Shown here: in pieces, positions 5,470 through 38,517 of the stretch
Layout of the letters: the number at the start of each line of letters is the position of its first letter
How positions within the stretch are numbered: position 1 is the first letter of the stretch
Source of the DNA: Candidatus Prevotella equi
GTDB lineage: Bacteria > Bacteroidota > Bacteroidia > Bacteroidales > Bacteroidaceae
Direction: 5' to 3'
Assembly: GCA_018065145.1 (NCBI GenBank)
Contig: JAGHTW010000155.1
Span: 1-38,517, forward strand
Length of the DNA stretch: 38,517 bases
Position numbers and translations under genes: made by a program
Notes under the pieces: model-generated
Databases searched by the model: none
The model's input: only the letters and a program-made list of their open reading frames with translations
Told to the model about the DNA's origin: nothing

Positions 5470-6881
5470 TGAGTATTCTGAAGACAATAAAAGGATGGAT
5501 AGCAGGTATGTTCAAAGGAAAAGCAAAAGAACTATTTGACATTGAAACAATAACAACTGCAAAAATGGATAGTTTTGTCAGACAGTGTGTGAGAATATAT
5601 CAAGGCACTCCTGACTGGCTGGATGATGACGACGAAATAAAAACGATCAATTTTGCAGAGGTAATCTGCGCAGAGACGGCACGGCTTGCGACGTTGGCAA
5701 TCGGCGTAAGAGTTGACGGTAGCAGCCGAGCAGAGTATCTGCAGAAGCAGATTGACAAAGTATATTACAGCCTGCGCACGTGGGTTGAGTACGGCCTCGC
5801 ATACGGTACAATTGTATTAAAACCATCAACAGATGGAGTTGAGTTGTTCACAAATGAAAGATGTATTTTGACAGACAGAGACGGCGACAATGTAACGGGC
5901 GCTGTATTTGTTTTTAATGAAGAAGCAAATGACGTATATTATACGCGCTTAGAGTATCACAGATTCGCTGAAGATGGCGCATACCTGATTGATAATAAGT
6001 GCTTCAAAGGAAAAGCAGAAAACGACATGCGCGAAGCGGTAGGAATTGATCAAACACCGTGGGCAGGTCTTTTAGAGTCAGCAAGAATTGACAATCTTGA
6101 AAAGCCTTTGTTTGCGGTATTCAGAACGCCAAACGCAAACAATATTGAGCTTGACAGTGTGCAGGGAATGCCTATATTTGCAACAGCAATTGAGGAACTA
6201 AAAGATCTTGATATCGCATACAGCAGAAACGCAACAGAAATAAACGACTCAAAAAGAACCGTGCTTATGGATGCGGATAAGCTTTTCCCGTTTGGCAGGA
6301 TGTCAGATATTGCAGCGCTTGACAAAACAATCGCTACTGATCGCATGCGTGATAAGATGGGAATGCCAAAATATGTCAGAATGGTTGAGGGTGACGGAAA
6401 CACTGGATTCTATCAAGAAATCAATCCTACACTCAACACCGTAACAAGAGAAGAGGGCATAAATTTCCTGCTATCAGTAATTGGATTCAAATGCGGATTC
6501 AGTAATGGTTATTTTGTATTAGATCAGAAGACTGGCATGGTTACTGCAACTCAGGTTGAAAGTGACGACAGAAGAACAATTCAGACAATCAAAGACGTAA
6601 GAGACAAACTGCAGAAATGTATTGAGGATCTTGTTTATGGTATGGATATCATGGCGGATCTGTATTTCTTAGCACCAGTCGGCGAGTATGAACTTATATT
6701 CGACTTCGGAGACATTACGTATAACAGAGAAGAAGATCGAAGCAGATGGTGGAGCTATGTAATGAGCAACAAAGTTCCTGCGTGGATGTTCTTTGTAAAA
6801 TTCGAGGGAATGACAGAGGAAGACGCGAAAGCAATGGTATCGGAAGCGACTCCCAAAGAAGAGGGATTATTTCCTGAATAA
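5469..6881 (+). CDS. Portal protein (A118/SPP1-like)
   Basis: A 470-residue protein whose ATG 5469 shares one base with the terminase stop (TAATG). Length, position after the large terminase and sequence style (an early KTINFAEVICAETARLA helix, then DLDIAYSRNATEINDSKRTVL near the middle) match A118-family portal proteins. The portal forms the dodecameric ring at one capsid vertex, docks terminase and later the head-tail connector. No frameshift or missing segment is seen. Confidence comes from gene order plus overall resemblance; no single catalytic motif exists for this family. Confidence 0.9.
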   Translation: MSILKTIKGWIAGMFKGKAKELFDIETITTAKMDSFVRQCVRIYQGTPDWLDDDDEIKTINFAEVICAETARLATLAIGVRVDGSSRAEYLQKQIDKVYYSLRTWVEYGLAYGTIVLKPSTDGVELFTNERCILTDRDGDNVTGAVFVFNEEANDVYYTRLEYHRFAEDGAYLIDNKCFKGKAENDMREAVGIDQTPWAGLLESARIDNLEKPLFAVFRTPNANNIELDSVQGMPIFATAIEELKDLDIAYSRNATEINDSKRTVLMDADKLFPFGRMSDIAALDKTIATDRMRDKMGMPKYVRMVEGDGNTGFYQEINPTLNTVTREEGINFLLSVIGFKCGFSNGYFVLDQKTGMVTATQVESDDRRTIQTIKDVRDKLQKCIEDLVYGMDIMADLYFLAPVGEYELIFDFGDITYNREEDRSRWWSYVMSNKVPAWMFFVKFEGMTEEDAKAMVSEATPKEEGLFPE

Positions 6882-27660: not shown

Positions 27661-28989
27661 TTAGACAAATTTAATTCCATCAATCTCGCCGCTGGCATTT
27701 ACGTCGATTTCCCTTACAATGTTCTGCCAGAATAGTTTTCTGTTTTCTTTTGTAAGCTCATCGTATATCTCTTTCCAGTTTCCAAACACAACACTGGTAG
27801 CTGCAACTTTTCTTTCCACAAGCTGATCAGACAGAGAAGCAATTTCTTTTTGAATTGCTCTGATCTTTTTGTCGTATTCGTCAATGTCAAGTCTTCCCAT
27901 TTCATACAGGTGATCCAGACGTTTCATTGCTTGCTCCAGATCCTCTATGCTTTTAGTTTTCTTTTTCTTTTCGCTGGTTGTTAATGAAGATATTTTCGCT
28001 GTGTAGGAATCCAGATACAGCCTGATGTTGCTGATCATTGTTTCCTCCAGATACTGTTCACCAACTGCAAAATGTTTGTGGAGTCCCTTTGTGCCACTAG
28101 GGCAGCGGTAATAAATATACGTCTTGCCTCGCATGGTGTTTTTGTTTGCAGCAAGCCTAGATCCGCAAATAGGGCACTTGATCATGCCAGTATACAGATA
28201 ATGTAGTCCAGACGGCGCAGCCTTTATGCAGTTTAAGGATCTCACCCTCTGCATGTATTCTTCAGTGAAATATGGTTCACAAAAGCTGTCGTTTTCTCTG
28301 ACGCGGCCTATGTATAAATCAGAGTTGATCATTGCCTGCAGCATTCTGAGAGTAAAATCAGGATCGTAAGTTTCCCTTACCCATTTTGCAGTGCCATTTT
28401 TGTTTTTGCTAAGTAGGAGATGCTCAAAGATTGCGCGCGTTTCCTCTTCCTTGTCGTGGACAATTCTTTTGTATCCATCAATCTTTTCGATTTTGAATCC
28501 AAAGCGCGGCAGTTTCCCAGTGTAGGCCAGTCCGTGAGATATTTTGAAGCGGTGCATATCTTTGTATCGCTCAGATGTGAGCGCCCATTCAAGCTCCGCC
28601 ATTGCGGCCATTTGATACATAAAATTCCTGCCGTATGGTGTTGATGTATCAATCTGCTGACTGACAGAGACAAGACTGCTGCCAGATTCCTCGATATCGT
28701 GGAATATATTGCAAAAGTCCCTCATATTACGCGCTATTCTGTCATAACGCATAATTACAACCAGATCAATCTTGTGTAACTTCACATCATTCATCATGCG
28801 CAGGAAATCTTTTCTATATTTCATAGAATGGCCTGTGAATCCATAATCTGCATCATAGAGTGTAAGCTCATAATTCCCTGCGCCATATTTTCCATCCAGA
28901 TATGAAGTGCAGTTATAAACCTGCGCCTCCATACTGTCTGAGTCTTTTTTCTCTTTCGATTTTCTAGGATAAATCGCTGCTCTTATCAT
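27661..28989 (-). CDS. int: Large serine recombinase (phage integrase)
   Basis: A 442-residue protein. I start at ATG 28989 (MIRAAIYPRKS), overlapping the upstream gene's stop as ATGA; the track's 12 extra residues have no ribosome site. The resolvase-type domain (residues 1-150) has the catalytic Ser in YPRKSKEKK and Arg residues in MRYDRIARNMRDF. Next come the recombinase domain, a zinc ribbon (CPICGSRLAANK, then YYRCPSGTKGLHKH) and a coiled coil (SIEDLEQAMKRLDHLYEMG). It joins attP and attB to insert the prophage and, with a directionality factor, excises it. It converges on the lysis terminator next to the att-like sites. Confidence 0.93.
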   Translation of the reverse strand: MIRAAIYPRKSKEKKDSDSMEAQVYNCTSYLDGKYGAGNYELTLYDADYGFTGHSMKYRKDFLRMMNDVKLHKIDLVVIMRYDRIARNMRDFCNIFHDIEESGSSLVSVSQQIDTSTPYGRNFMYQMAAMAELEWALTSERYKDMHRFKISHGLAYTGKLPRFGFKIEKIDGYKRIVHDKEEETRAIFEHLLLSKNKNGTAKWVRETYDPDFTLRMLQAMINSDLYIGRVRENDSFCEPYFTEEYMQRVRSLNCIKAAPSGLHYLYTGMIKCPICGSRLAANKNTMRGKTYIYYRCPSGTKGLHKHFAVGEQYLEETMISNIRLYLDSYTAKISSLTTSEKKKKTKSIEDLEQAMKRLDHLYEMGRLDIDEYDKKIRAIQKEIASLSDQLVERKVAATSVVFGNWKEIYDELTKENRKLFWQNIVREIDVNASGEIDGIKFV

Positions 28990-29204
28990 CTTTTCACTTC
29001 CCAAGATCTTCCGCAATCGTTGCATGTAGCAGTAGTAATCATTATAACTTTTTCTTTTCTACGGCGTACAAGCATCCACAAAAGCCAGAGGCCTCCAGTA
29101 ATACAGATCATAAAAAGATTCCACAAAAAGGATCTTCTCACGCTCTTTACAACAGCACTGGTTGTACAGTTTACATTCTCACTTCCACATTTTACACATT
29201 TCAT
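28986..29204 (-). CDS. Zinc-ribbon protein with one membrane segment (LITAF-like layout)
   Basis: A 72-residue protein with AAAGGAGGAT before ATG 29204. It starts KCVKCGSENVNC, carries one hydrophobic helix (SFLWNLFMICITGGLWLLWML, residues about 26-45) and ends TATCNDCGRSWEV. Two CxxC halves flanking a membrane-inserted helix is the layout of LITAF-type or split zinc-ribbon membrane proteins. Co-transcribed with the integrase (ATGA overlap), so it may be made in the lysogen. Superinfection immunity or a role with integration are possible; neither is shown. Confidence 0.7.
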   Translation of the reverse strand: MKCVKCGSENVNCTTSAVVKSVRRSFLWNLFMICITGGLWLLWMLVRRRKEKVIMITTATCNDCGRSWEVKR

Positions 29205-29298: not shown

Positions 29299-29320
29299 CG
29301 AACAAGTGTTCTAATATAAT
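29299..29320 (+). promoter_or_regulatory. LexA (SOS) box overlapping a promoter
   Basis: CGAACAAGTGTTCT (29299-29312) matches the Gram-positive LexA/DinR consensus CGAACRNRYGTTYC at 13 of 14 positions and forms the GAACA-N2-TGTTC palindrome. A -10 TATAAT lies at 29315-29320, three bases downstream, so bound LexA would block RNA polymerase. No good -35 is seen. The promoter drives the 35-residue ORF at 29355 after DNA damage. Confidence 0.75.
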
Positions 29321-29354
29321 TATATCCCACTTATAAACGAAAGGGGGCATACAA

Positions 29355-29462
29355 ATGGGATACAAAGATGAAATCATACAGATGATAACTAAAATTGATA
29401 ATATAAAGATACTTGAATACATTTACGCTTTTTTAAATGAATATATTTTTAACCAAGCATAG
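29355..29462 (+). CDS. SOS-controlled 35-residue ORF, candidate antirepressor
   Basis: ATG 29355 with AAAGGGGG (29340-29347) upstream, ending TAG 29462. The product is helical throughout, with a MGYKDEIIQMITKIDNIK helix and an amphipathic, Tyr/Ile/Phe-rich second helix ending FNQA. It is below the track limit. The gene lies behind a LexA box and converges on the CI-like repressor gene, overlapping its last 14 bases. The repressor lacks a self-cleaving domain, so SOS induction needs another input. A small LexA-controlled protein that binds and inactivates the repressor, as with the small antirepressors of Gifsy phages, would explain this arrangement. Antisense interference with repressor mRNA is the alternative. 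Confidence 0.6.
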   Translation: MGYKDEIIQMITKIDNIKILEYIYAFLNEYIFNQA

Positions 29463-29781
29463 AAGCAATCATATTTTCAATTATCAATTTGTCACGATCC
29501 GAAAGTCTTTCAAAATTCTTTACAAGCTTTGCTGATCTCGCAGCGGTTGCACTCACTGCAGTTTGCTCTTCTACGAGATCGGCCTTGCTTATACCAAAAT
29601 AATTTGCCATCATTTCGATTTTGTCCATTCTTGGATAAGTATTAGCATTTACCCAGTTACTCAGTGTAGTTGCAGGAACGCCGATTTCTTCCGCAAGTCT
29701 TGCACAGCTTATTCCTTTGATCTCAACATAACGCAAAATATTCTTTGCTAACGTCTCTTTATTTCCTAAATTGTTGCTCAT
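29449..29781 (-). CDS. CI-like phage repressor (Xre family, no protease domain)
   Basis: A 110-residue protein with an N-terminal HTH_3 domain: the helix-turn-helix spans roughly CARLAEEIGVPATTLSNWVN, followed by PRMDKIEMMANYFGISKADL. The remaining 35 residues are a short helical tail ending LSDRDKLIIENMIASM, probably for dimerisation. No S24/LexA-type Ser-Lys peptidase is present. Divergent from the Cro-like gene across a 170-bp control region carrying palindromic operators. Presumed to hold the early promoter shut in the lysogen and regulate its own promoter. The ribosome site AAGGAAGTG precedes the start. Confidence 0.85.
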   Translation of the reverse strand: MSNNLGNKETLAKNILRYVEIKGISCARLAEEIGVPATTLSNWVNANTYPRMDKIEMMANYFGISKADLVEEQTAVSATAARSAKLVKNFERLSDRDKLIIENMIASMLG

Positions 29782-29860: not shown

Positions 29861-29875
29861 TACCGAAAAAAGGTT
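29861..29875. promoter_or_regulatory. Operator O2 (overlaps early -35)
   Basis: TACCGAAAAAAGGTT, 15 bp, matching TACCG-N5-CGGTA with two changes. Its last two bases are the first two of the early promoter -35 box. Confidence 0.7.
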
Positions 29876-29902
29876 GACACATACCGACATTAGGTATATA
29901 TT
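29874..29902 (+). promoter_or_regulatory. Early lytic promoter (pR-like)
   Basis: Perfect -35 TTGACA at 29874-29879, 17-bp spacer and -10 TATATT at 29897-29902. Operator O2 touches the -35, and O3 fills the spacer exactly. This is the start of the long early operon, which ends at the terminator 481-511 on the circle. Confidence 0.88.
29882..29896. promoter_or_regulatory. Operator O3 (early promoter spacer)
   Basis: TACCGACATTAGGTA, 15 bp, centred in the spacer between -35 and -10 of the early promoter; binding would exclude RNA polymerase. It matches the family TACCG-N5-CGGTA with one change. Confidence 0.8.
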
Positions 29903-29913
29903 ACATTATGTAA

Positions 29914-29928
29914 TACCGAAAAACGGTA
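29914..29928. promoter_or_regulatory. Operator O4 (perfect palindrome after the early -10)
   Basis: TACCG-AAAAA-CGGTA, the perfect consensus palindrome, lies just after the early promoter start region, 23 bp before the Cro-like start. Confidence 0.85.
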
Positions 29929-29950: not shown

Positions 29951-30154
29951 ATGGGTATCACACTTAAGGCTGCAAGAGTTAATGTCGGAATGTCTCGGAC
30001 TGTTGCCGCAGAAAAATTAGAGGTTGCTGTAAGCACACTTCGTAATTACGAAATTGGCAAAACATATCCACCTGTGGATGTTGTTAAGCGAATGGAGAAT
30101 GTATACGGGGTATCTTATAGCGATCTTATTTTTTTACCTATGTATACCGAATAA
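29951..30154 (+). CDS. Cro-like HTH regulator
   Basis: A 67-residue Xre-type protein, nearly all DNA-binding domain: LKAARVNVGMSRTVAAEKLE (helices 1-2) and VAVSTLRNYEIGKTYPPVDV (recognition helix and following turn). ATG 29951 follows AAAGGAG. First gene of the early operon and divergent from the CI-like repressor; the classic Cro place, presumed to repress the repressor promoter through the same operators. Operator O5 overlaps its stop codon. Confidence 0.85.
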   Translation: MGITLKAARVNVGMSRTVAAEKLEVAVSTLRNYEIGKTYPPVDVVKRMENVYGVSYSDLIFLPMYTE

Positions 30155-30159
30155 CGGTA
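30145..30159. promoter_or_regulatory. Operator O5 (perfect palindrome overlapping the Cro-like stop)
   Basis: TACCG-AATAA-CGGTA, the second perfect consensus copy, spans the stop codon of the Cro-like gene. A repressor bound here, about 230 bp from O4, could loop with the main operators or block elongating polymerase. Confidence 0.75.
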
Positions 30160-30165
30160 CATAGA

Positions 30166-30180
30166 AACCGAAGGAAGGTA
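30166..30180. promoter_or_regulatory. Operator O6 (half-degenerate)
   Basis: AACCGAAGGAAGGTA, 21 bp centre to centre from O5 (two helical turns), matches the operator family with two changes. It also contains the GGAAGG ribosome site of the next gene, so the resemblance may partly be chance. Confidence 0.5.
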
Positions 30181-30185
30181 TATAA

Positions 30186-30338
30186 ATGAATGAGCTTCAG
30201 GCGGACAACGCAATTAAATTACTGGCCAGACTGTACTGCCAGCAAAACGGAATTGAAAAATTCGAAATTTTAATGAAGAAGGAGAAGAGAGATGAAAAAG
30301 AATTTTGTAATCGGAATACTGGCAGGGCTGATTGTTAA
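30186..30338 (+). CDS. Small early protein (50 aa)
   Basis: Below the track limit. ATG 30186 with GAAGGAAGG upstream, ending at TAA 30336. The product, starting MNELQADNAIKLLARLYCQQ then NGIEKFEILMKKEK, matches a common tiny early protein of clostridial phages ('...LL..LY..QNG.e...'). Its last 15 codons overlap the next gene in another frame, and are probably less constrained. Function unknown. Confidence 0.65.
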   Translation: MNELQADNAIKLLARLYCQQNGIEKFEILMKKEKRDEKEFCNRNTGRADC

Positions 30339-30516
30339 TAGAGAAATTTATTCTCAAAACTCAATATGGCTTCAGATTGGTTTTGTAATTACAATCGCAT
30401 TTTTTGTGCTTGTGGTGATTTCAGAAGTCGAGTGTGTATTGGAAGAAAGAGCAAAGAAGCGCAGAAAAACCGAGAGAATGCGCAGACAGTTGGAAAGAAT
30501 AACAGGAGGCAGATGA
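30292..30516 (+). CDS. Small membrane protein
   Basis: A 74-residue protein, ATG 30292 with GGAGAAGAG upstream, within the end of the previous gene. One or two hydrophobic helices (FVIGILAGLIV and IWLQIGFVITIAFFVLVVI) are followed by a strongly basic cytoplasmic tail (RAKKRRKTERMRRQLE). Early phage membrane proteins of this kind can be involved in superinfection exclusion or replication anchoring; no evidence for either here. Confidence 0.7.
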   Translation: MKKNFVIGILAGLIVNREIYSQNSIWLQIGFVITIAFFVLVVISEVECVLEERAKKRRKTERMRRQLERITGGR

Positions 30517-38377: not shown

Positions 38378-38517
38378 ATGGGGTACTGGGAAAATATCTG
38401 TGAGATGCAGAAAAAGCAGACAGAAAAAGGGATCAGGACGTATGGGCAGACGCTTGAACAAAACACAAGCTTAAACGAGACGCAGCGTCTTGAATACTTA
38501 GAGGAAGAGCTTATTGA
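38378..38517 (+). CDS. MazG-like NTP pyrophosphohydrolase, N-terminal part (continues at 1)
   Basis: ATG 38378 with GAGGAGG upstream; the frame runs off the right edge and continues in phase at position 102 after the repeated block. Full length 67 residues. The start (MGYWENICEMQKKQTEKG, then IRTYGQTL) and the acidic helix after it agree with short MazG-like phage proteins. See the entry at 1-165 for function. The segment 38417-38517 is a duplicate of 1-101. Confidence 0.6.
   Translation, partial: MGYWENICEMQKKQTEKGIRTYGQTLEQNTSLNETQRLEYLEEELI
38417..38517. repeat. Terminal direct repeat, right copy (circular overlap)
   Basis: Identical to positions 1-101. It lies in the coding region of the MazG-like gene, keeps the reading frame across the join, and so marks a circular assembly rather than a phage end structure. 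Confidence 0.95.

Follow-up and report, generated by a model that had tools for sequence, protein, structure and literature searches.

Introduction

In one class of damage-responsive prophages without a cleavable repressor, represented by the LexA-controlled antirepressors of Gifsy and Fels (PMC3121763), Tum of phage 186 and the antirepressor of N15, a small antirepressor gene lies behind a LexA box. Elements of Gram-positive bacteria whose repressors lack an S24 domain can instead use protease switches of the ImmR/ImmA and MpaR type, in which the repressor is cleaved (PMC6872733). A non-proteolytic solution is known from the linear plasmid-like phages, where Qtip and smORF72, both small and poorly conserved proteins, inactivate the cognate CI (PMC10432266). 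The architecturally closest system is SinI/SinR of Bacillus subtilis, in which hairpins of both proteins hook into a four-helix bundle, whereby the SinR tetramer is dissolved and DNA binding is abolished (PMC3163267). Many temperate Firmicutes phages possess a repressor with neither a self-cleaving domain nor a partner protease, and their sensing of DNA damage is unexplained. Here we describe a 35-codon gene (mini-gene) on contig JAGHTW010000155.1, which was binned with Candidatus Prevotella equi (GCA_018065145.1) and is analysed over its whole length of 38,517 bases (the window). With a probability of roughly 75 %, its product is an SOS-inducible antirepressor that acts on the C-terminal tail of the neighbouring phage repressor in a SinI-like manner.

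The mini-gene, its promoter and the adjoining repressor gene

The mini-gene occupies positions 29355 (ATG) to 29462 (end of the stop codon) on the plus strand and encodes the charged, amphipathic protein MGYKDEIIQMITKIDNIKILEYIYAFLNEYIFNQA. It is preceded by the Shine-Dalgarno sequence AAAGGGGG (29340–29347, plus strand), a TATAAT −10 element (29315–29320, plus strand) and, adjoining the latter, the putative LexA box GAACAAGTGTTC, a perfect GAAC-N4-GTTC palindrome at 29300–29311 within CGAACAAGTGTTCT (29299–29312). The −35 region is poor, no promoter match of at least 9/12 being present at the mini-gene site. Clostridial LexA sites have the form GAACN4GTTC/GTTT (PMC4234289), and the box at 29300–29311 has both the sequence and the promoter location of a Firmicutes SOS operator. 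The mini-gene is convergent with the gene of a CI-like repressor of 110 amino acids (29449–29781, minus strand) and overlaps its 3′ end by 14 nucleotides. The repressor is composed of a helix-turn-helix (HTH) domain and a C-terminal two-helix tail; its domain matches are limited to HTH_3, HTH_26 and Phage_CI_repr, and Peptidase_S24 (PF00717) is absent. A first-pass annotation of this DNA had listed the box, the TATAAT, the ribosome site, the small open reading frame (ORF), the overlap and a repressor devoid of an S24/LexA peptidase, and had proposed an antirepressor on these grounds; each of the listed elements was confirmed.

Taken by itself, the box of this single window is weak evidence and near chance. 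The window contains no second perfect box, the extended box with up to two mismatches occurs five times compared with 6.7 expected and is thus not enriched, and the 73 perfect boxes in the 3.45 Mb of the surrounding binned genome correspond to about 0.8 per window length; the assignment to LexA therefore rests on comparison with related loci. The putative operators of the repressor itself are of a different kind. The motif TACCGN5CGGTA is found 13 times in the window (4.0 expected), and the sites are clustered around an early promoter, TTGACA-17-TATATT (29874–29902, plus strand), with copies at 29861, 29882 and 29914 (29861–29928) and further ones at 30145, which is perfect, and 30166 (30145–30180). 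The promoter of the mini-gene has no such motif, for which reason the mini-gene appears, as judged from the sequence, to answer to LexA rather than to its own repressor.

Recurrence of the module in related loci

Relatives of the repressor, which served as the search anchor, were gathered from viral and genome contigs and comprised 214 distinct homologues. A box with at most one mismatch was present at 33 of these, together with a small ORF that is convergent and preceded by a ribosome site, and 32 of the 33 ORFs form one protein family with a consensus near MKEEYIQKIVELLEQCNDIPLLDLILKLLQKS. A hidden Markov model (HMM) of this family gave 42 distinct mini-ORF/repressor pairs in the same position, mostly on contigs of uncultured phages; the module is also present, unannotated and with a one-mismatch box, in the GenBank phage MT835521 from human faeces. 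At L283, it belongs to a prophage in a Lachnospiraceae-family genome. The first-pass annotation had suggested a search for homologous ORFs at this place, and had named a box without a conserved ORF in related phages as speaking against its proposal; the opposite was seen, since the homologous ORF and the box are repeatedly found together in an unchanged convergent arrangement.

A box is located upstream of the mini-ORF in 36 of the 42 loci (24 perfect, 12 with one mismatch), the background per 120 nucleotides being 0.006 for perfect boxes and 0.037 at up to one mismatch. Because box, ORF and position are conserved in these 36 loci, the box stands above chance. In 35 of the 36, it lies 27–55 nucleotides upstream of the start codon, and its central bases, which were not selected for, follow the pattern RNNY as in Gram-positive LexA sites. 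Start codon and Shine-Dalgarno sequence are likewise conserved across the homologous loci, and the position of the mini-ORF is constant beside diverse integrases and repressors. In about ten loci (L217, L225, L228, L264 and others), a conserved protein of about 200 amino acids (KPYNRCLSCPHRKVRCDGPRTSGLELARWCEYMRDM...) replaces the integrase to the left of the mini-ORF.

Searches by other routes were less productive. The integrase as anchor led to a single relative, tblastn of phages with the 35-residue query gave zero matches, and scans of whole genomes with single sequences, PHROGs and a three-sequence HMM returned mostly noise, though locus L029 was recovered. Among 397 genomes of a Lachnospiraceae family, all four HMM-only matches faced, in convergent orientation, the gene of an HTH regulator of a different type, and two of them had boxes. 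The family has no convincing entry match in Pfam, NCBIfam or PHROGs, none of 19 members matched the SinI family, and an earlier description was not found in the open-access library searched. Two further observations concern individual loci: L165 contains a second mini-ORF of the family (6012–6149, plus strand) for which no adjoining repressor was found, and in L370 (MT838382) the repressor faces a different convergent helical ORF of 42 amino acids (MDVSIDSDDVREQLRAMLALELFLHLSAEDQERVIAFLKSLS) without a box, possibly an analogous, unrelated mini-protein.

The mini-ORF is under purifying selection at the protein level. Outside the overlap, the mean proportions of nonsynonymous (pN) and synonymous (pS) changes were 0.22 and 0.79 in 55 close pairs, which are non-independent though uniform in pattern, and the changes are distributed over the three codon positions as 500/182/756. 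This bears on the idea that the SOS promoter acts by transcription, a convergent or antisense RNA silencing the repressor gene and the ORF being incidental. The convergent overlap would suit such a mechanism, as would the lack of a good terminator between mini-ORF and repressor gene, where the search gave a single weak five-pair stem (29543–29559) inside the latter. Selection on the protein and the conserved start and ribosome site argue against it, as do the covariation with the repressor tail specifically and the repeated presence of this protein next to differing HTH genes (see below), so that we regard silencing by RNA as improbable.

Covariation with the repressor tail and possible cassette exchange

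The distances between mini-ORFs parallel those between the repressor tails (residues 75–110; 29452–29559 on the minus strand in the window), with r = 0.71 on alignments and r = 0.79 on BLAST scores (0/5000 permutations). The corresponding values were 0.20 for the HTH domain, with a partial value of 0.02 on alignments when the tail was allowed for, 0.04 for the Cro-like neighbour and a weak 0.15 for the flanking gene on the other side, which became −0.10 with the rest controlled; the correlation with the tail was still 0.785 with HTH, Cro and the flanking gene controlled. The C-terminal tail is thereby indicated as the probable partner and target of the mini-protein. Linkage alone would explain this covariation poorly because the flanking gene is close too, the tail being closer still.

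Tail and mini-ORF may also travel together. In a second HTH family of 62 repressors (WLxGF[DN]-type), a tail resembling FSLLxxRDKxIVxxMIDxML, a pattern formulated after the positives had been seen, occurs in eight members, and all eight have a mini-ORF, compared with 0/54 of the members with other C-termini. The mini-ORF of the window is closest to this group (37 % identity to L029) and its HTH domain belongs to the first family (PRIDKIE-type); because they fall in different groups, a joint exchange of tail and mini-ORF is pointed to. On balance we favour the wider view that tail and overlapping mini-gene constitute a portable SOS-induction cassette which moves onto different HTH repressors, a third and protease-free route of wiring Firmicutes prophages to DNA damage that replaces S24 autocleavage and ImmA-type proteolysis, and which would be widespread in uncultured phages and missed at only about 32–50 codons.

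Many small peptides under SOS control are toxins, and the mini-protein could accordingly be an unrelated SOS effector, acting as a toxin, in lysis or in host takeover, whose gene just happens to adjoin that of the repressor; one family member has a weak PHROGs "toxin" match (E 0.044). The charged amphipathic sequence, the cognate pairing with the repressor tail and the invariable location next to differing integrases and repressors make this very unlikely.

Mutual exclusion with other induction devices

The 121 classifiable repressors of the PRIDKIE type fall into those with a mini-ORF (41), with an S24-like domain (24), with an ImmA-like protease next door (18) and with none of these (38). 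The overlap of the mini-ORF with S24 or ImmA-like protease was zero (p = 1.5e-10), and in none of the 41 mini-ORF loci do the 1.2 kb 3′ of the repressor contain an HExxH-bearing ORF on the strand of the repressor gene. A Pfam check of a sample confirmed S24 and Peptidase_M78, the latter in four loci without mini-ORF. This distribution suggests that the mini-ORF replaces the other induction devices and, together with protein-level selection and tail covariation, supports the antirepressor function put forward in the first-pass annotation. Covariation suggests pairing and leaves the sign of the effect unspecified, and small phage proteins are known that tune a regulator, such as gp7 of GIL01, which acts on LexA (PMC4551915; PMC11323111). 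The mini-protein might thus support the repressor or LexA, as a co-repressor or by stabilisation, and set the induction threshold instead of inactivating the repressor. A gene kept off by LexA in the lysogen and switched on after damage would better fit an antirepressor, and the fact that the mini-ORF and S24 or ImmA-like devices exclude one another points to an inactivating role; a stabilising function is therefore judged unlikely.

Predicted structures and proposed mechanism

AlphaFold predicts the HTH domain of the repressor with helices in residues 8–70 and a confident C-terminal hairpin of helices 75–92 and 95–109, and the mini-protein as a two-helix hairpin (3–12 and 17–32). In the monomer models, the predicted local distance difference test score is about 93 over repressor residues 91–110 and averages 91 for the mini-protein. 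Repressor and partner are thus both predicted to have the paired two-helix domains of the SinI/SinR type. Foldseek matches of the repressor included SinR and the SinR/SinI complex, mostly via the HTH domain; the mini-protein alone gave no match.

By analogy, a SinI-like disruption of the repressor oligomer is the likeliest mechanism. In the lysogen, host LexA bound to the box would keep the mini-gene off. Upon DNA damage, RecA would trigger cleavage of LexA and the mini-protein would be made, which would then pair with the two-helix tail of the repressor encoded by the convergent gene. The resulting hetero-bundle would take the place of the repressor's own oligomer, as in the SinI/SinR case, and the repressor would leave its TACCGN5CGGTA operators, so that the cro/early promoter fires.

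Several points weigh against this interpretation. The seed loci were chosen with a box, which inflates the proportion of 36/42, and among the 10 non-seed pairs a box was present in 4. There is no recognisable box in L029, L110, L160, L165, L288, L289, L291, L356 and L357, and because some members of the module lack it, SOS control is not universal in the family; in L288, L289, L291, L356, L357, L029 and L110 another signal may be in control. The mini-ORF of the window is divergent, with 16–37 % identity to other members. The coding sequences of mini-ORF and tail overlap, and linkage as tight as this may inflate the covariation. Finally, the cores of SinI and SinR are similar to each other, whereas a profile comparison of mini-ORF and tail (hhalign) revealed no sequence similarity, 11 of 60 shuffles scoring equally high. 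Because of this lack of similarity, the resemblance to SinI/SinR is one of architecture. Visual inspection had suggested that the mini-protein mimics the tail in sequence; this idea was not backed by the profile comparison and was rejected.

The phage genome and its host

The ends of the contig are identical, forming a 101-bp exact terminal direct repeat (1–101 and 38417–38517); the phage genome represented by the window is therefore complete, closes into a circle and measures about 38.4 kb. Its genes include those of terminase, portal, minor head, tape measure and tail proteins, an endolysin, a NinB/Orf-like protein, a Gam-like protein and a large serine integrase (27661–29025, minus strand), which lies on the other side of the LexA box. 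A 72-amino-acid protein (28986–29204, minus strand), whose hydrophobic central part is flanked by CxxC pairs at either end, overlaps the integrase start and is divergent from the box. Beyond the repressor gene follow a Cro-like HTH protein of 67 amino acids (29951–30154, plus strand), the same neighbour being present in nearly all homologous loci, and a membrane-like protein of 74 amino acids (30292–30516, plus strand) with weak similarity to SieB (superinfection exclusion; E 1e-4, just under the Pfam cut-off).

Of the long ORFs, 27 of 46 in the window have an upstream Shine-Dalgarno motif, compared with 0 of 19 from other parts of the binned genome, and because of this difference and the terminal repeat the phage is most likely of Firmicutes type and misbinned with a Bacteroidales-like genome. 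The first-pass annotation had spoken of a clostridial phage, which is plausible. In the genus of the binned genome (3.45 Mb), no LexA was found above the TIGR00498 cut-off, and the UmuD-like proteins of that genus are of the Bacteroidales type; the SOS motifs described for Bacteroidetes are of other form, CTAA-N5-TTAG and GGA-N5-TCC (PMC8565304). That the binned genome lacks LexA was considered as an argument against LexA control and dropped, the phage contig being misbinned.

Comparison with known systems

For a sizeable number of phages, a conserved mini-gene with a LexA box that is tied to the repressor tail provides an answer that can be tested directly, and prophages responsive to DNA damage may be predictable from their tail sequence. 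The mini-protein is among the smallest candidate antirepressors and would be a phage parallel to SinI/SinR. With Gifsy/Fels, 186 and N15 it shares a non-cleaved repressor and a small gene behind a LexA box; here, however, the gene is found in Firmicutes-type phages and overlaps the repressor gene, whereas GfoA/GftA of Gifsy are encoded outside the immunity region (PMC3121763), and no library match links the families. Qtip and smORF72 resemble the proposed mode of action, but are controlled by a phage transcription factor, independently of SOS and without a LexA box. The ImmR/ImmA and MpaR-type switches are likewise induction devices for S24-less repressors, and an alternative on the same HTH families, but the module described here lacks a protease. 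The gp7 protein of GIL01 is also small, comes from a Gram-positive phage and is tied to LexA control, but binds LexA itself, whereas here the pairing indicated is with the tail of the phage repressor. The likeness to SinI/SinR (PMC3163267) comprises a repressor of about 110 residues with an N-terminal HTH and a C-terminal two-helix domain (74–111 in SinR), a tiny two-helix partner (3–39 in SinI) and a small, separately controlled gene beside the repressor gene; in contrast to SinI, the mini-protein is phage-borne and without a SinI family match, its gene is convergent, and a LexA box takes the place of Spo0A. The mini-protein is therefore outside the SinI family by sequence and outside the Gifsy family by gene position. 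While the functional class is already known, the protein family, the convergent overlap and the role as an exchangeable cassette appear to be new. By analogy, the mini-protein most likely works like a LexA-controlled antirepressor of the class of Gifsy, 186 and N15, and its architecture suggests an action like that of SinI on SinR.
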